Source of the DNA: Paenibacillus humicola
GTDB taxonomy: Bacteria; Bacillota; Bacilli; Paenibacillales; Paenibacillaceae
Assembly (NCBI RefSeq): GCF_028826105.1
Contig: NZ_JAQGPL010000001.1
Coordinates: 3,126,501-3,190,500, forward strand
DNA length: 64,000 nucleotides
Direction of reading: 5' to 3'
A program made the translations under genes and the position numbers. The notes beneath the pieces were generated by a model. It was given only the letters and a program-made list of their open reading frames with translations, searched no databases and was not told the origin of the DNA. This document shows, in pieces, positions 47,004 through 53,493 of this stretch (its first letter is position 1; every line of letters starts with the position of its first letter).

Positions 47004-47045
47004 ACAAAAAAGCTCCCGCCTGCCTCGTGGGCATCGCGGGAGCTT
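47004..47045 (-). terminator. Rho-independent terminator of the ECF operon
   Basis: A perfect AAGCTCCCGC / GCGGGAGCTT stem with TTTTTTG on the minus strand, 25 bases after the BtpA gene stop. Confidence 0.9.
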
Positions 47046-47069: not shown

Positions 47070-47858
47070 TTAACTTTGGAGCATGCGTTTGCGCTCGGCC
47101 ATCGCTTTTACGCGGTTCGGATCGAAGGGCTGCAGCAGCTGTCCGTCCTTCTTGATCGAAGTCCCGACGATCGCTCCGTCCGCGGCCTGAAGCACTTCCA
47201 GGACGTTGTCCGCGTCGACGCCTCCGCCGATCCAGACCGGGACGCCGACCGTTTGTTTGACTCTGCGGATATAGTCGAAGCTTTGCTCGACGCTCCGGCC
47301 GGCAATAACGAGCCCGTCCGCCTTTCCGAACCAGACCGCCTCGTGCGCCATCTCCTCGAGCGACGCGCCGCCGAGCGGCCACCGGGTCCGGTCGTATACG
47401 TCCGCGAACACGGCGATATTGCCGGCCATCAGCTCTCGCCGGTACCGCTGAACGCGCGCGGCGCAGCCTTCTACGATGCCGTCCGGCCCGACCATCGCGC
47501 CGACATACACCTTGATCCGGACGAACGATGCGCCCGCGGCATGAGCGGCCGCCAGGATCGCTTCCGGATCGTCCTCCAGCAGGCTGATGCCCAGCGGAAT
47601 CGAGACCCGGCCGCGGATCATCGCGCCCAGCGCGGACATCCAGGCGATCGTCTCGGTGCGCGCTGCCTTCGGAACCGGAAGATCGCCGATATTTTGCAGC
47701 ATGAGGCCGTCAAAGCCGCCATGCTCCAGTACCTCGGCCTCCCAGATAATCGAATCGATAAATCGATTCCGATCCATGCCGCCGTACATGCCCGAGCCCG
47801 GCAGAGGCGGACAGCCGACCACGCCGATCAGCGGCTTGGAACCATACCAATCGTTCAT
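47070..47858 (-). CDS. BtpA/SgcQ-family TIM-barrel protein
   Basis: This 262-residue (beta/alpha)8 protein has the BtpA/SgcQ family layout. LIGVVGCPPLPGSG is at the start, followed by GGFDGLMLQNIGD, VRIKVYVGAMVGPDGI and a phosphate-binding end (WIGGGVDADNV, DGAIVGTSIKKDG). The last block resembles ThiE/TrpF-like phosphate loops, so a phosphorylated sugar or nucleoside ligand is likely. The family is uncharacterised enzymatically; SgcQ sits in a sugar-phosphotransferase operon of E. coli. Last gene of the ECF transporter operon, 37 bases after the kinase. Confidence 0.85.
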   Translation of the reverse strand: MNDWYGSKPLIGVVGCPPLPGSGMYGGMDRNRFIDSIIWEAEVLEHGGFDGLMLQNIGDLPVPKAARTETIAWMSALGAMIRGRVSIPLGISLLEDDPEAILAAAHAAGASFVRIKVYVGAMVGPDGIVEGCAARVQRYRRELMAGNIAVFADVYDRTRWPLGGASLEEMAHEAVWFGKADGLVIAGRSVEQSFDYIRRVKQTVGVPVWIGGGVDADNVLEVLQAADGAIVGTSIKKDGQLLQPFDPNRVKAMAERKRMLQS

Positions 47859-47895
47859 CTCATTTCCCGTCCCTTGACTGAGGATTTTTCGCCGC

Positions 47896-48828
47896 TCACG
47901 CCATCCCTTTCAGCCTTTGCGCCGTATACCAGGCCAGCCGGCCGGAGGCGGCGGATCTTTCCGCCGTCATCGCCGCCATCGGCCCGTAGCCCTCCAGCAC
48001 GAACGAAGCCGATACGCTCCCCCATTCGGCGGCCGCCGCAGGACCGCAGCCCGCGGACATGCCGGCCAAAAATCCGCCGCAATAGGCGTCGCCGCAGCCT
48101 GTTGGGTCCACCGCTTCGCCGGGGTACGGGGAAATACGGGTCTCCCGGCCGCTCTCCTTCTCGTAAACGAGGCTGCCGCGTTCGCCAAGCTTTAGCACGA
48201 CGACCGGCGGCCCCATGACTGCAATCCGCCTTGCCGCTTCCGGCTCACCGATGCCGCTTCCGAGCATAGCCGCAACTTCGACGCTGGACGGCATGAACAC
48301 GTTCAGCAGCGGAAGTATTTTCGCCCAGCGGTCCGCATCGGACATCCAATCCTCATGCGGGTCGAGGGAAATGTACGGCACGCCGCGAGATTTGAGCGCG
48401 TAAACCCATTGCTCCTGAATGTCTATGGGCATCGGCGCGATATGGGCGGCCCGGATGCGGCCCAGCACCTGCTCCGGAACGAGCGGCGGGCGCGGCGAAA
48501 TGGAATGATAATCGCTTTCCGTATGGATCGGCACATATTTTCTGCCGCCCTGCACATCATATAAGGCCCACTGCCGGACCGCAGGCACGTCGAGCGCGAT
48601 CACCCGGTCCATGTCGATCCCCGATCGGGTCAGCAGCTCCAGCGCTTCCTTCGGATAATTGCGGCACATGCAGGTCAGCAGTACGGGATGAACTCCCCAA
48701 GCCTTCAGCCCCAGCGAAGCGTAAAGCGCATTCCCGCCCGGAGTGGTAAAATGCGTTTGGCCGTTTGGCAGCACGATATCATCCACGGTCAAATGGCCGA
48801 TTACCGCCGCTTCGAAACGTTCAGCCAT
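47896..48828 (-). CDS. PfkB-family carbohydrate/nucleoside kinase
   Basis: This is a 310-residue ribokinase-fold kinase. PfkB signature 1 is FTTPGGNALYASLGLKAWG; signature 2 is VDPTGCGDAYCGGFLAG, with the catalytic aspartate in GCGD (a cysteine replaces the usual alanine). The likely substrate is a sugar or sugar-amine delivered by the ECF transporter; FrlD-like fructosamine kinases or pseudouridine-type kinases are possible relatives. The start follows GGAGGGAGCGGC. It lies between the SIS gene (14 bases) and the BtpA gene. Confidence 0.88.
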   Translation of the reverse strand: MAERFEAAVIGHLTVDDIVLPNGQTHFTTPGGNALYASLGLKAWGVHPVLLTCMCRNYPKEALELLTRSGIDMDRVIALDVPAVRQWALYDVQGGRKYVPIHTESDYHSISPRPPLVPEQVLGRIRAAHIAPMPIDIQEQWVYALKSRGVPYISLDPHEDWMSDADRWAKILPLLNVFMPSSVEVAAMLGSGIGEPEAARRIAVMGPPVVVLKLGERGSLVYEKESGRETRISPYPGEAVDPTGCGDAYCGGFLAGMSAGCGPAAAAEWGSVSASFVLEGYGPMAAMTAERSAASGRLAWYTAQRLKGMA

Positions 48829-48842
48829 GCCGCTCCCTCCTG

Positions 48843-49967
48843 TCAGCCTACGATATTGCTGCCGAAAATTTGCCGGAAATTGACTTCCATCCGGTTTTTG
48901 TCGTCGAATCCGAGCATGACCGCTCCCACGGCCTGGGCGAACGAATAGGAGAAAATTTGCAGCGGAATCTGGTACAGCAGCGGCGTCAGGCACTCATCCT
49001 CCGGCGCCGTATCAGGCATCGCCAGAACGGTATCGGCCAGCTTCTGCGTCTCCGCATCGGCTTCGCTGCATATAACGGCGGCATGCCCGCCCATATCTCT
49101 CACGGCCTGCAGCTGCTCGCGGGCACGGTCCGCAGCCGCACCCGGCGGAGCGATGACGATCGTCACCGTCCCTTCCTTGGTGCAGAAATACTGCTCATGC
49201 GCCCACTCCTCCAGTTCCTGGGCCGTCGTATTGTGCTTGGCCGATTCGATCTGCTTCGCCATGCCGAACAAGGCCGAACCGTAATTCGGGCCGCCGCCCA
49301 TAATGACGACCTCGCTCGCTTTTGTCGCCAGTTCGCCCAGCCGGCCGGCGAGGTCGAAGGTGCTTTCGACCGCGGTATCCATCAGCGTGCCGAACGATTC
49401 GATTTTCCGCATCAGCGCTTCCGTGCCGCCTTTGCCGGTTCTCTCCGCCAAATACGCCGCCAGCACATATTGGGCAATCAAGGACGCAGTATAAGAAATC
49501 GTTCCCGGACCGAAGCCGGTATCCTCGTATTTGTAAAATACGGTGCCGTCCGCCTCCTGCCCGAGCCGTCCTTCGGTGTTGTACGAAACGCCGAACGTCA
49601 GGTGCCTTCTGGCTTTGCCTCGCACGACGCACTCCACCGTCCGCGCCACGCGGCCGGAATTCGAGGTGGCGACGATCCAGCTTCCTTCCGGTGCCCAGTC
49701 CGCCTCGTACCGGGAAAATTCCAGCGATTCCATGGCGCGGCAGTCGACGCCCGCCCACATCTTGAAAGCAAGCTCGGAGCTGATTCCGCAGAAATAGGAG
49801 TCGCCGCAGCCGACCAGATACGCGCGCCCCGGCAGCGGGCGCGGGTCCAGGATCGACGACCAGCTTGCCAGAATCGGTTTCGCTTGCGTTCTTACAAAAT
49901 GACCTTGGGCCCGAATGCCTTTCAGCATGTTGCCCCATTCGAGACTGACGTTTTCATGTACGAGCAT
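48843..49967 (-). CDS. SIS-domain sugar isomerase/deglycase (FrlB/AgaS-like)
   Basis: This 374-residue protein has two SIS domains. The first has AYLVGCGDSYFCG and VATSNSGRVARTVEC; the second has EVVIMGGGPNYGSALFG and the tail KNRMEVNFRQIF. It resembles the isomerase half of glucosamine-6-phosphate synthase and fructosamine-6-phosphate deglycases (FrlB), which act on phosphorylated amino sugars. There is no glutaminase domain. The ATG follows GGAGGGAATACG. It probably acts after the neighbouring kinase. The exact substrate is unknown. Confidence 0.85.
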   Translation of the reverse strand: MLVHENVSLEWGNMLKGIRAQGHFVRTQAKPILASWSSILDPRPLPGRAYLVGCGDSYFCGISSELAFKMWAGVDCRAMESLEFSRYEADWAPEGSWIVATSNSGRVARTVECVVRGKARRHLTFGVSYNTEGRLGQEADGTVFYKYEDTGFGPGTISYTASLIAQYVLAAYLAERTGKGGTEALMRKIESFGTLMDTAVESTFDLAGRLGELATKASEVVIMGGGPNYGSALFGMAKQIESAKHNTTAQELEEWAHEQYFCTKEGTVTIVIAPPGAAADRAREQLQAVRDMGGHAAVICSEADAETQKLADTVLAMPDTAPEDECLTPLLYQIPLQIFSYSFAQAVGAVMLGFDDKNRMEVNFRQIFGSNIVG

Positions 49968-49986
49968 CGTATTCCCTCCGATTCGG

Positions 49987-50790
49987 TTATAAGTAATCCG
50001 CCAGAAGCACGCCCGTCCCCGTGAGCCGGCAGCAGATCCCGAGGACGATCGCTCCAAGGGCGGCGAGCATGACGATGTAATCGAACGATTTCAGCTGCAC
50101 TTCGGTGATGCAGGTGCGGTTTTTTCGGGCGCCGAACGCTCTCGCTTCGAGGGCGATTGCCAGCGACTGGGCGATATCGATCGACCTCAGCAGCATCGGC
50201 CCGAGAATCATGACCGATTTGCGGATTCGTGCGAGCGGATTCCCGCTCTTGTAATCGTAGCCGCGCGATTTTTGCGCTTCCACCACCGTGACCCATTCCG
50301 CCCCTACCAGCGGCACGAGCCGGATCGCAAAGGAGACGGACATCGCCGCCTTATACGGGAGGCCCAGCTTCAGGAAGGCGGCAGTCATCTTTTGCGGCGA
50401 GGTGGTGGCCATCCAAATGCCCGCCGACAGCACCATTATGGTGACGCGAAGCCCCATCGCAAGCCCGAACCACAAGCCGGTATCGGTTAATGCAACTCCC
50501 ATTACGTTAAACAAAGGCTCTCCCGTTTTCACATAGGCCGGCCAGACGATCAGCGACAGCAGCACGAACCAGACGCCGGAAAGCAGCAGCATCCGGATCA
50601 GCGTGACCGGAAGCCGGATCCAAAGCGCCGTGCCGATAAGCAGCGCGGCGACGAGCGCCAGCGGCAGCGGGTGATTGAAGCACAGGGAGAGCACGAAAAT
50701 CGCGAGCACGGCGACCGTTTTCGTCCGCGGATCGAGCGCCTGATGGACGACGGACGGCCGTTCGATATAAATGCTGTAACCGGAAGCCAC
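49987..50790 (-). CDS. ecfT: ECF transporter transmembrane component EcfT
   Basis: This 267-residue membrane protein has about five helices and the two coupling-helix motifs of EcfT (LEARAFGARKNR and the preceding SRGYDYKSGNPLARI). It links the S component to the two ATPases. A GTG at 50838 overlaps the ATPase gene and has no site; the GTG at 50790 follows GAGGTGATC, an excellent ribosome binding site. Being in the same operon as its own ATPases and S component makes this a dedicated (group I) ECF transporter. Confidence 0.88.
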   Translation of the reverse strand: MASGYSIYIERPSVVHQALDPRTKTVAVLAIFVLSLCFNHPLPLALVAALLIGTALWIRLPVTLIRMLLLSGVWFVLLSLIVWPAYVKTGEPLFNVMGVALTDTGLWFGLAMGLRVTIMVLSAGIWMATTSPQKMTAAFLKLGLPYKAAMSVSFAIRLVPLVGAEWVTVVEAQKSRGYDYKSGNPLARIRKSVMILGPMLLRSIDIAQSLAIALEARAFGARKNRTCITEVQLKSFDYIVMLAALGAIVLGICCRLTGTGVLLADYL

Positions 50791-50803
50791 TTGGATCACC
50801 TCG

Positions 50804-51655
50804 TTATTTTGCCGGGACCGTCCGATCGCTTTTCGCACGGGAAAGCGCCCGAACGAGGCCCGGAACCGTAATAATCGGGTCGCCCGGGTCCATCAGACCG
50901 AGCTGACGGCCGACCCGGGTTACCTGCAGCGGTTTGACCTGCGCGTACCGCAGCGTTTGGAGATCGCTAAGCACGTCCGCGGTAGGCGCATCCTTCAGAA
51001 TGCGCCCGCCCGCCATCGCGATGGTGCGGGGTACGTAATCCGCGACGACGGGAATATCGTGCGTAATGATCACGATCGTGACGTTCAGCTTCTCGTTCCA
51101 TTCCTTCAGCAGGTTCATGATACGGGTGATGCCCGCGTAATCCAGCCCCGTGGTCGGCTCGTCGACGACGAGGATGGACGCGCCGACGGCGAGAATGGAA
51201 GCGACGGCCAGCCGCTGCCGCTCGCCCCTGCCGAGCATCGAAGGGTGCAGCTCCCGCTTTCCTTCCAGCCCGACCAGCTGCAGCGCTTCCTCGATCCGCC
51301 GCTTGACGGCTTCCGGCGCGAGGCCCGCTGCCCGGGGGCCGAAGCCGACCTCCTTTTCCACCGACTGGGAAAAGATCTGGTGGTCCGGATTCTGATAGCA
51401 GTAGCCGACAAGCCTGGCTAGCGCATCCCGCTTATATTCCCGCGTATTTCGTCCCCGGACCCAGACGTCCCCCCGGGTCGGTTTCAAGATGCCGTTAATA
51501 TGCTTGGCCAGCGTCGTCTTTCCCGCTCCGTTCTGGCCGATCAGCGCGATAAAATCCCCTTCGCGGATATCCAGATTAATGCCGCGGAGGATGGGGGACG
51601 TTTGTTTGTCGTATCCGAACTCCACGTTCTCGAAGCGAATGACCGGCGAATTCAC
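50804..51655 (-). CDS. ecfA: ECF transporter ATPase, second subunit
   Basis: This 283-residue ABC ATPase has Walker A GQNGAGKTT, Q-loop YCYQNPDHQIF, signature LGRGERQRLA (a variant of LSGGQ), Walker B ILVVDEPTTG and H-loop ITHD. The GTG start overlaps the stop of the first ATPase (GTGA). It forms a heterodimer with that subunit. Confidence 0.93.
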   Translation of the reverse strand: MNSPVIRFENVEFGYDKQTSPILRGINLDIREGDFIALIGQNGAGKTTLAKHINGILKPTRGDVWVRGRNTREYKRDALARLVGYCYQNPDHQIFSQSVEKEVGFGPRAAGLAPEAVKRRIEEALQLVGLEGKRELHPSMLGRGERQRLAVASILAVGASILVVDEPTTGLDYAGITRIMNLLKEWNEKLNVTIVIITHDIPVVADYVPRTIAMAGGRILKDAPTADVLSDLQTLRYAQVKPLQVTRVGRQLGLMDPGDPIITVPGLVRALSRAKSDRTVPAK

Positions 51656-52524
51656 TCTCCGTCCCCCCTCAGCCAAGCGCCGAGCGTACCCGCCGCTTCC
51701 TGTTCGTAAGGCGTAATCGCGTCCTCCCGCAGCAGTCCCGCTTGTTTCAGTCCATGCATCGCCTCGGCCACCTGCGGTACGCGAAGCCATCCTTTTTCCA
51801 GGAAAATCTCCGGGTGGCGAAAATGATTCGCCGGCGTATCATCGGCGAGAAGCTGCCCGTCCTCCAGCACCAGAATGCGGTCGGCAATTTCCGCCAGCTC
51901 TTCCACCGCATGATCGACAAGGACGATCGTTACTCCGCCGCGCTTCAGGTCGGCGATGGTGCGGTACACCTCTTCCTTGCCGATCGGGTCCAGCTCCGAG
52001 GTCGGTTCGTCGAGAATGAGCACCTTCGGCTCCATCATAAGCGCGCTGGCGATGGCAAGCCGCTGCTTCTGGCCGCCGGACAGCTTGTAGGTTTCCCGGT
52101 GCATGAAGTCCTGCAGGTTCACCCTGCTCAGAACCGGCCCGATCCGCCGGATAATGTCTTCCGGCGCATGCTCCAGATTTTCCGGCCCGAACGCCAGGTC
52201 CTCCATCACATTCATGCCGACGATCTGGCTTTCGGGATCCTGAAACACCATGCCGACCTCCTGCGCCAGCACCTCCGCCGGCACCTCGCGCGTATGCTTG
52301 CCCAGCATCCAAATATCGCCGGTCAGTTTGCCGCCTACCGCATGGGGAATCAGACCTTTGAGACATAGGCAAAGCGTGCTTTTGCCTGCTCCTGAGGCGC
52401 CGACAATCCCGACAAGCTGTCCTTTATGGACGTCAAAGCTGATATCGCGCAAAATGTCCGTGTCGCCCATGCGATAACGGAACGACAGCCCCCGGACCTT
52501 GATAACCGGTTCCACATCATCCAT
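51652..52524 (-). CDS. ecfA: ECF transporter ATPase, first subunit
   Basis: This 290-residue ABC ATPase has Walker A GASGAGKST, Q-loop VFQDPESQI, canonical signature LSGGQKQRLA, Walker B VLILDEPTSELD and switch histidine LVDHAVEE. The ATG at 52524 follows GGGAGGTGCGGC; in-frame codons further upstream have no site. It pairs with the second ATPase in one transporter. Confidence 0.93.
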   Translation of the reverse strand: MDDVEPVIKVRGLSFRYRMGDTDILRDISFDVHKGQLVGIVGASGAGKSTLCLCLKGLIPHAVGGKLTGDIWMLGKHTREVPAEVLAQEVGMVFQDPESQIVGMNVMEDLAFGPENLEHAPEDIIRRIGPVLSRVNLQDFMHRETYKLSGGQKQRLAIASALMMEPKVLILDEPTSELDPIGKEEVYRTIADLKRGGVTIVLVDHAVEELAEIADRILVLEDGQLLADDTPANHFRHPEIFLEKGWLRVPQVAEAMHGLKQAGLLREDAITPYEQEAAGTLGAWLRGDGE

Positions 52525-52573
52525 GCGCCGCACCTCCCAGGTTCTTTTTTTCATGAGCAATTCTTCCTGCATA

Positions 52574-53290
52574 TCAGGCCGCAATATTCCGCTCCAGCCG
52601 GTCCTCCCAATATAAGCCGCGGGACTTGACGACTTTATACAATATCGTGATTAAGATCGGCGAAAGAATAGCCGGCAGCAGCGCCTGATTCGTCAAAATG
52701 GAGAGCGTAACCCCGCCCCAGGCGACGGCAGGCGGCAGCACGTGAAGGAAATCGAGCCATCCCGGTATCGTAATGGCGTGAATGACAGGCGCGATGATAA
52801 TGCCCCCGATATAAAAGCTGATGACGTTCGAAGCGTTCGAGAAATTGGCGCCGCGGCACATTTTGTAGGTCAGCCAGGTGATGTAGGTGTGGGATAGACA
52901 GCCGGCAATGGAGCCCAAGGTGAGCTGCCCGCTGATGGCGTCTCCGATAGGCATCGAAAACGTTACGCCGATACAGGCCGGTAGTCCGAAGAGTACGGAT
53001 AAGGTTTGGGCGATGGAAAGCGAAGGATTCAAGCCGCCGATGCCCGGGATGAAATTGATGGCCAGCGGCCTGCCCGCGATATACAAGGCTGCGCTGACGG
53101 CGATCAGGGCGATCGTCGTCGCGTTCCATTTGAGCCCGTTGCGCACGAAGCCTTTGCGCCCGATCGTCCAGCCGGAAAACTCCATGGCCCAGATGGCAGC
53201 CGCCAGAACCAGAAACAGAAGCGAAGCAAACACCAAGACGGAATGCAGGGGACCTTGCCCGAGCAGGGCTGCCAAAAAATTGGACTGCAT
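52574..53290 (-). CDS. ECF transporter substrate-binding (S) component
   Basis: This 238-residue membrane protein has six hydrophobic helices and the S-component look (ALYIAGRPLAINFIPGIGGL, GDAISGQLTLGSIAG). It is the first gene of the operon. The family within ECF S components is not recognised, so the substrate must be inferred from the operon: a sugar-like or amino-sugar-like compound. The ATG at 53290 follows GGGAGGGAATCC. The residues around helices 2-3 (RPLAINFIPG) are unusually polar for a membrane face and may line the binding pocket. Confidence 0.82.
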   Translation of the reverse strand: MQSNFLAALLGQGPLHSVLVFASLLFLVLAAAIWAMEFSGWTIGRKGFVRNGLKWNATTIALIAVSAALYIAGRPLAINFIPGIGGLNPSLSIAQTLSVLFGLPACIGVTFSMPIGDAISGQLTLGSIAGCLSHTYITWLTYKMCRGANFSNASNVISFYIGGIIIAPVIHAITIPGWLDFLHVLPPAVAWGGVTLSILTNQALLPAILSPILITILYKVVKSRGLYWEDRLERNIAA

Positions 53291-53444: not shown

Positions 53445-53457
53445 TTGGTCTGACCAA
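53445..53457. promoter_or_regulatory. FadR/GntR-type operator
   Basis: TTGGTC-T-GACCAA, a perfect 13-base palindrome of the TGGTC-N-GACCA type bound by FadR-subfamily GntR regulators (PdhR, LldR, FadR). It begins 8 bases after the -10 box of the ECF operon promoter, over the expected start site, so binding should block transcription. No GntR gene is in the window. Confidence 0.65.
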
Positions 53458-53465
53458 TGTAATTT

Positions 53466-53493
53466 ATTATAACACATATTTTCGATTTGCCAA
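53466..53493 (-). promoter_or_regulatory. Near-consensus promoter of the ECF operon
   Basis: On the minus strand TTGGCA, a 16-base spacer and a perfect TATAAT. Transcription would start near 53458, inside the palindrome, giving a leader of about 165 bases. The rest of 53494-53600 is AT-rich with nothing else recognised. Confidence 0.7.

Follow-up and report, generated by a model that had tools for sequence, protein, structure and literature searches.

An ECF importer of an unnamed S family encoded with a kinase, a SIS-domain protein and a BtpA barrel in Paenibacillus humicola: a possible uptake operon for nucleoside-like compounds

Introduction

Energy-coupling factor (ECF) importers and their substrate-binding S components mostly serve vitamins and metals. 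In a 64,000-nucleotide stretch of the genome of the soil bacterium Paenibacillus humicola (contig NZ_JAQGPL010000001.1, positions 3,126,501 to 3,190,500 of the forward strand; hereafter the window), the genes of such an importer are followed by those of a SIS-domain protein, a PfkB-family kinase and a BtpA/SgcQ-family barrel. Which compound does this operon take up, and what would the three enzymes do with it? An original prediction, made from the sequence alone, had pointed to a fructosamine or an amino sugar. We tentatively favour another answer, which we hold to be nearly as probable as not: an operon for the uptake and breakdown of a nucleoside-like compound, in which a pentose is joined to a nitrogen-rich ring of the pyrimidine, hydantoin or purine type. 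For this substrate, which like the chemistry we infer, we count the BMP-family (PnrA-like) importers that stand beside the same enzymes elsewhere, the pairing of ECF-linked with BMP-linked proteins in the SIS tree, the dihydropyrimidinase-like, DeoC and nucleoside hydrolase neighbours, the adjacency of BtpA and ribokinase, and the S-family intermediates that match QueT. In Bacillota and Chloroflexota a set of catabolic enzymes accompanies an ECF importer of an unnamed S family, and none of the papers listed by our searches of the open-licence PMC literature describes the seven-gene set.

Structure of the operon

Gene calls and Pfam matches placed all seven predicted genes head to tail on the minus strand (47070-53290), with adjacent genes overlapping or at most about 50 bases apart. 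In the order of transcription the genes are as follows.

52574..53290, minus strand: S component (substrate-binding membrane protein), 238 residues; no Pfam or NCBIfam match
51652..52524, minus strand, longer starts possible including 52584: EcfA1 ATPase; TIGR04520, 242 bits (cut-off 315)
50804..51655, minus strand: EcfA2 ATPase; TIGR04521, 221 bits (cut-off 330)
49987..50790, minus strand: EcfT transmembrane coupling protein; PF02361 (CbiQ/EcfT), 98 bits
48843..49967, minus strand: two-SIS-domain sugar-phosphate protein of a distinct EEWAHEQYF type; PF01380, 56 bits
47896..48828, minus strand: PfkB-family kinase; PF00294, 75 bits
47070..47858, minus strand: BtpA/SgcQ-family phosphate-binding TIM barrel; PF03437, 215 bits; TIGR00259

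Pfam recognises six of the seven proteins, the S component being the exception, and scores the two ATPases as ABC_tran with 101 and 108 bits. Loci fetched for comparison are referred to by number (L003 and so on). Since the same seven genes occur in the same order in L003, L004 and L005, which are metagenome-assembled genomes (MAGs) of Bacillota and Chloroflexota, the gene order is not a product of chance.

The importer and its S component

The predicted structure of the S component has the fold of ECF S components plus an extra N-terminal helix. With EcfT and two ATPases encoded next to it, the system is an ECF transporter as far as the modelled fold can tell, and the complete, dedicated importer that had been predicted is indeed encoded in one place. 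It shares with other dedicated-module transporters the four parts in one operon, the S fold and the EcfT and EcfA matches, and differs from them in its unnamed S family, the additional helix and the catabolic enzymes of the operon. Neither the ATPases (scores listed above) nor EcfT (78 of 112 bits) reach the NCBIfam equivalog cut-offs. EcfA1 carries the Walker A motif GASGAGKST and a normal LSGGQ signature; the ABC signature of EcfA2 (50804-51655) is degenerate, with LGRGE for LSGGQ. The C-terminal half of EcfT contains the SRG and ARA motifs.

The S component, entered with 236 of its 238 residues (the first two omitted), matched no Pfam model at E 1e-3 and no NCBIfam model. Judged by its sequence it belongs to an S family that is unnamed in both collections, as had been suspected. 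A sequence search of solved structures returned chance-level rows only, and the protein had no match in plasmids and no relative in viral contigs. Homologues connect it to named families: the intermediates L018-L021 and L025 score above the cut-off of PF06177 (QueT), L017 just so, and the intermediates also match the riboflavin family in part. One further homologue (P0087) has a precomputed PF06177 hit, and one is labelled riboflavin transporter FmnP by its source. The apparent connection of the window protein to QueT runs through such intermediates only. Membership of the window protein in QueT itself was rejected (no match at E 1e-3; hhalign probability 1.7%), as was membership in ECF_trnsprt (PF12822; no match at E 1e-3; control hhalign probability 0.5%), both hhalign comparisons being weakened by the low diversity of the S profile (Neff 1.8). 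Thus, the question whether the protein falls in a vitamin family has a divided answer: it does not do so directly, but its intermediates lean towards QueT and partly towards riboflavin transporters. In passages of one source, QueT and QrtT are described as ECF subgroups for queuosine precursors, characterised there as purine derivatives, and the C. difficile versions as carriers of preQ1, or of preQ1, queuine and queuosine (PMC11130926). The window system resembles these subgroups through its intermediates; it differs in the missing direct match and in partner genes that are not of the Q pathway. Two distant QueT-like S components (L030:8910-9710 and L033:10310-11116) lie near genes that look, by eye only, like methylthioadenosine phosphorylase.

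Distribution of the ECF-linked gene set

The S gene was found in 1 of 295 sampled genomes of the host's family, namely in the host itself. Matches occurred in 7 of 400 Chloroflexota genomes (three of them distant) and in 11 of 154 genomes of the class of L004 (nine distant), and a scan of species genomes gave seven loci. Nine S-family loci besides the window were fetched (L003-L009, L029 and L084; L082 proved to be the same contig as L003 and was dropped), with S components 32-80% identical. EcfA1 and EcfA2 adjoin the S gene in all nine, and PfkB and SIS genes follow EcfT in all seven whose contig runs on. BtpA is present in five of these seven (L003, L004, L005, L029, L084); in L006 and L007 a dihydropyrimidinase-like hydrolase takes its place, and no BtpA was found anywhere in these two genomes, which are MAGs whose completeness is not established. 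The importer part is also present in an Acidobacteria MAG. Among the 11 distant S relatives (L018-L028), QueT-matching proteins among them, the seven stretches that were read contained no SIS, PfkB or BtpA gene. The neighbourhood is therefore conserved across phyla but not among close relatives; a lack of conservation in related genomes was one of the two findings named with the original prediction as speaking against it. This patchy spread fits a horizontal transfer of the seven-gene set as a whole.

The same enzymes stand beside other importers

A SIS-profile search at E <= 1e-40 found the protein in 6 of the 348 genomes searched from the host's phylum and in 19 of 301 from Chloroflexota, and tblastn of plasmids with the SIS protein gave four records. 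One of them, plasmid pMHb of Mesorhizobium huakuii, encodes a GntR/UTRA regulator, a kinase, a SIS protein and BtpA, and then an importer of the BMP family. The three enzymes are those of the window, but the place of the ECF system is taken by an ABC importer that has a binding protein. Kinase, SIS protein and BtpA also occur alongside BMP importers in L083 and L087, and kinase and SIS protein alongside a BMP permease in L099. The BMP binding protein is PnrA-like according to Pfam, and PnrA serves as a receptor for purine nucleosides.

In a tree of the SIS proteins (31 rows), ECF-linked L007 is sister to BMP-linked L087a (support 96/89) and ECF-linked L084 is sister to BMP-linked L087c (100/99). 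Of the fused and GlmS-like proteins, only the C-terminal 375 residues entered this tree (260 in the case of L096); 8 of its 28 inner branches are open and seven rows are long. The ECF locus L084 and the BMP locus L087 share further genes at 42-58% identity, encoding a zinc-dependent alcohol dehydrogenase, a short-chain dehydrogenase/reductase, FdrA, AllG, an M42 peptidase-like protein, a ferredoxin-like protein and one unnamed protein. Probably the importer was exchanged while the enzymes stayed, and the substrate would therefore be of the same kind in both. The unnamed protein (209-225 residues, starting MTHTLHR; L084:2779-3405 and L087:2749-3426, minus strand) travels with the ferredoxin-like, AllG and FdrA genes, and its L084 version has no Pfam or NCBIfam match.

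Neighbouring genes as clues to the substrate

We examined 30 SIS-bearing stretches of 3.3 to 25 kb (the window, L003-L007, L029, L037-L040 and L083-L101). PfkB adjoins or is fused to SIS in 17 of them; the other 13 include L094 and L095, with weak kinase-like neighbours, and L040, with a 24% kinase hit 4 kb off on the other strand. Dihydropyrimidinase-like genes were found in 7 of the 17 PfkB-SIS stretches (L006, L007, L037, L083, L084, L088 and L099; the one in L037 is 8.7 kb away on the other strand) and in none of the 13 others. An eighth lies just past the edge of the L087 stretch, in a search beyond stretch edges that covered ten genomes, none of them from the 13. The number of such genes per genome is 1-8 in these ten (E up to 1e-50), from which the chance expectation is a few per cent per 20 kb stretch, as a rough estimate without a matched control. 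The hydrolases score as dihydropyrimidinase or allantoinase, above the cut-offs in L083 and L088 and below them in L006, L007 and L084.

FdrA-like proteins and AllG, which Pfam names as an oxamate carbamoyltransferase subunit, are encoded in L084 and L087. In L084 a DeoC gene (274 bits, cut-off 117) starts 6 bases past the end of BtpA. A nucleoside hydrolase and an adenine deaminase precede the kinase, a PRAI-like barrel and the SIS protein in L093, and in L029 the S gene is preceded, at a distance of 4.7 kb, by a nucleoside-hydrolase-like gene (31%); among the stretches, nucleoside hydrolases occur in these two only. The seven operon genes themselves include, by Pfam, no nucleoside phosphorylase, nucleoside hydrolase or PsuG-type enzyme. 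Taken together, the hydrolase, carbamoyltransferase, DeoC, nucleoside hydrolase and BtpA-kinase neighbours point to a pentose on a nitrogen-rich ring. An N-glycoside resembling a nucleoside is more in keeping with them than an Amadori compound or an amino sugar.

The kinase and the SIS protein

The kinase remains below every NCBIfam cut-off, with 46 bits for fructoselysine 6-kinase against a cut-off of 247. The SIS protein is likewise below every cut-off and is nearest to the isomerase domain of GlmS (85 bits against 381; 85 of 418 bits for TIGR01135). Among solved structures it matched GlmS at 1.3e-12 and a putative fructose-amino-acid deglycase (3eua) at 5.8e-5, and in their sources many of its homologues bear the name glucosamine--fructose-6-phosphate aminotransferase. 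When aligned to the isomerase domain of GlmS/GFAT (2zj3), its K238, E241 and H257 fall on the K, E and H of that enzyme, residues that in GlmS open the sugar and catalyse proton transfer between C1 and C2. An equivalent pair is at work in FraB-type deglycases. The pattern K-x-x-E, with H sixteen residues after E, is present in all 31 SIS proteins extracted (32 were sought, that of L093 being the one absent); two of the 31 are GlmS-like, as recognised by length and an ELKH motif, and 20 have EEWxH at this site. Thus, the window protein resembles the GlmS isomerase domain in its two SIS domains and aligned K/E/H. It is set apart from GlmS, and from membership in that family, by having SIS domains only, without a glutamine amidotransferase domain, by EEWAH in place of ELKH and, by eye, by the lack of a lysine at the GlmS C-terminal lysine position.

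That kinase and SIS protein act in succession, as originally predicted, gains support from two Chloroflexota genomes in which PfkB and SIS are fused into one protein (L089:1587-3749, minus strand; L096:1458-3257). The arrangement is like that of the FrlD/FrlB and FraB-type kinase-deglycase pairs, in which a PfkB kinase adjoins a SIS protein. It is unlike them in a kinase below the family cut-off, the presence of BtpA and the ring hydrolases of the relatives.

The BtpA barrel

BtpA scores above the TIGR00259 cut-off (207.7 against 153.4 bits) and does not reach that of photosystem I BtpA (NF045918; 171 of 400 bits). The structures nearest to its predicted model (pLDDT 95) are HisF, TrpA, RPE, NanE, TrpF and KDPG-aldolase-like barrels. 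A single-sequence search of solved structures gave nothing; sequence links concern the C-terminal part of TrpA-type proteins, in which their phosphate site is located. An alignment read by eye shows ADVxDR(T/S) in most SIS-linked BtpA proteins and VKHG/S in most others. We know of no enzyme activity assigned to BtpA/SgcQ proteins. Without SIS, BtpA pairs with kinases in haloarchaea and rhizobia, in rhizobia with an annotated ribokinase beside it; in Sagittula ureide genes are nearby and a TenA gene follows. BtpA was found in 180 plasmid records, of which seven neighbourhoods were read.

Several further BtpA loci were observed. The host has a second one (L102:8557-16564, C1 ~2.51 Mb) with a GntR-like gene, BtpA, a ribokinase (319.5 bits, NCBIfam cut-off 299.65) and a peptide-type ABC importer, and a DeoC-like gene lies about 7 kb beyond it. 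Two Streptosporangiaceae replicons carry BtpA-SIS pairs (L038:6974-8948 and L039:9102-10915; 60% and 48% identical to each other) in which no PfkB kinase was found. At most 5 kb separates the Streptosporangium pair from folE/queE/queD and a phosphoribosyltransferase gene; the second pair stands amid genes that look by eye like those for non-ribosomal peptides. A 7-deazapurine link drawn from the Streptosporangium cluster was set aside, as the Nonomuraea pair has only BtpA and SIS in common with it (15 probes), and the proximity may be coincidence. In L093 a PRAI (TrpF)-like barrel (L093:3679-4401) sits between PfkB and SIS, in the usual slot of BtpA, after the nucleoside hydrolase and adenine deaminase genes. 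We did not build on this single case; TrpF-like hits in L098 and L100 look by eye like ordinary tryptophan genes.

A proposed route and its alternatives

For a nucleoside-like substrate the following route can be proposed. The S component with EcfA1, EcfA2 and EcfT would import the compound, and the PfkB kinase would phosphorylate its sugar. Opening of the phosphorylated sugar would fall to the SIS protein, which is also the likeliest candidate for parting sugar phosphate from base; we assign it this step because SIS and PfkB form the constant, sometimes fused core of the importer operons. BtpA, as a HisF/TrpA/RPE-type barrel, may isomerise or cleave the resulting sugar phosphate. In the relatives a dihydropyrimidinase-like enzyme would probably open the freed base, and FdrA/AllG proteins would probably recover the carbamoyl group of the base. 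If the nucleoside reading is true, BtpA/SgcQ and the distinct SIS type would gain a testable job, and nucleosides would be degraded without the usual phosphorylase or hydrolase. A fuller proposal goes further, and we regard it as rather doubtful. An undescribed ECF S family would bring in, as nutrients, nucleosides or other N-glycosides whose ring is ureide- or pyrimidine-like, and would supply a new deglycosylation route: PfkB would make the 5-phosphate, and the GlmS-like SIS protein and BtpA, rather than a nucleoside phosphorylase or hydrolase, would take off the sugar. Soil bacteria of several phyla would have exchanged ECF and BMP importers ahead of this one route.

A number of observations weigh against a nucleoside-like substrate. 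GlmS-like SIS enzymes normally act on hexose phosphates, and a ring-nitrogen nucleoside as the substrate of a GlmS-type reaction would, to our knowledge, be without precedent. Importers differ greatly in type between loci: L088 has the same enzymes with a sugar-type binding protein, and L089 a fused kinase-SIS protein with an amino-acid permease. The BMP parts of L083 match a putative vitamin B6 transporter, below the cut-off. Both BMP-linked partners in the SIS tree, L087a and L087c, were flagged for unusual residue make-up. The S family and core QueT, when compared directly, gave no significant match (probability 1.7%). No dihydropyrimidinase was found in the stretches read of the window, L003, L004, L005 and L029, the host genome having four dihydropyrimidinase-like hydrolase genes, none inside the window; L003 and L004 have a GFO/IDH-type dehydrogenase instead, and L003 also one of the 3-hydroxyisobutyrate type.

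Four other explanations were considered. Uptake of fructosamines (Amadori compounds), with PfkB as an FrlD-like 6-kinase and SIS as an FrlB-like deglycase, would account for the pairing and fusion of the two proteins, and the sugar-type binding protein of L088 and the sugar-type ABC genes seen by eye in L094 and L095 would suit it. The K/E/H site fits a deglycase as well, so this pattern does not decide. Fructoselysine 6-kinase is among the weak matches of the kinase; this match is, however, far under the FrlD cut-off, the deglycase structure is matched less well than GlmS, and the dihydropyrimidinase, AllG/FdrA, DeoC and BMP neighbours would have no place. We consider this explanation unlikely. 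Less likely again is a vitamin or cofactor glycoside or another N-heterocycle, such as a B6 or thiamine derivative, whose nucleoside-like neighbours would only share a regulon. The usual cargo of S components, the B6-transporter resemblance in L083 and the TenA gene in Sagittula speak for it, but AllG, FdrA and dihydropyrimidinase suit catabolism rather than salvage, and no Rfam family, riboswitches including preQ1 among them, reached the gathering score in the window and eight relatives.

Even more improbable in our view is amino-sugar catabolism, where the kinase would make an amino-sugar phosphate, the SIS protein would be an isomerase or deaminase and BtpA an epimerase or aldolase. The nearness of SIS to GlmS, the GlmS-type names of many homologues and the resemblance of the barrel to NanE-type epimerases agree with this, but it leaves the ring hydrolases and carbamoyl genes unexplained, and no deacetylase or NagA/AgaS-type partner was recognised by eye in the stretches (the 27 probes lacked those enzymes). 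With both kinase and SIS protein below the cut-offs and with relatives whose neighbours are of the nucleoside type, the fructosamine or amino-sugar substrate first proposed was not supported. Salvage of a queuosine precursor or another 7-deazapurine is the least probable of the four. The PF06177 matches of the intermediates and of P0087 and the folE/queE/queD genes near the Streptosporangium pair would fit it; the non-significant S-QueT comparison, the lack of a preQ1 riboswitch in the Rfam search just mentioned and the Nonomuraea pair, which has no other genes of the L038 cluster nearby, do not, and we know of no role of the kinase and the SIS protein in Q salvage.

Regulatory elements and base composition

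The GC content of the operon is 60.9%, that of its flanks 57.8 and 59.0% and that of the window 55.4%, which gives no clear sign of import. Three elements flank the genes.

53466..53493, minus strand: promoter-like site TTGGCA-16-TATAAT with TG ahead of the second hexamer; 11 of 12 matches
53445..53457, no strand: 13-base perfect palindrome TTGGTCAGACCAA, operator-like, near the expected transcription start
47006..47045, minus strand: probable intrinsic terminator of the operon; stem GCTCCCGC...GCGGGAGC, 16-base loop, six T

The promoter-like site lies 5' of the S gene, in a region that holds four sites with at least nine matches against a shuffle mean of 2.7. The palindrome just downstream of it is the sole exact copy in the 5.9 Mb genome; with one mismatch allowed there are three further places, and the total of 4 per strand stays below the 7 of the reversed control. 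It resembles GntR-type operators. Similar palindromes lie upstream of GntR genes, at 27 bases in L029 (6757) and at 190 in L037 (10080), but with the loose pattern matching at 23 sites in 13 loci these two may be due to chance, and neither L003 nor L004 had a match where its operon starts. About 25 bases past BtpA there is a hairpin of 8-10 bp with a T run, which was read off the sequence because its loop of 16 bases exceeds the 8-base limit of the hairpin scan.

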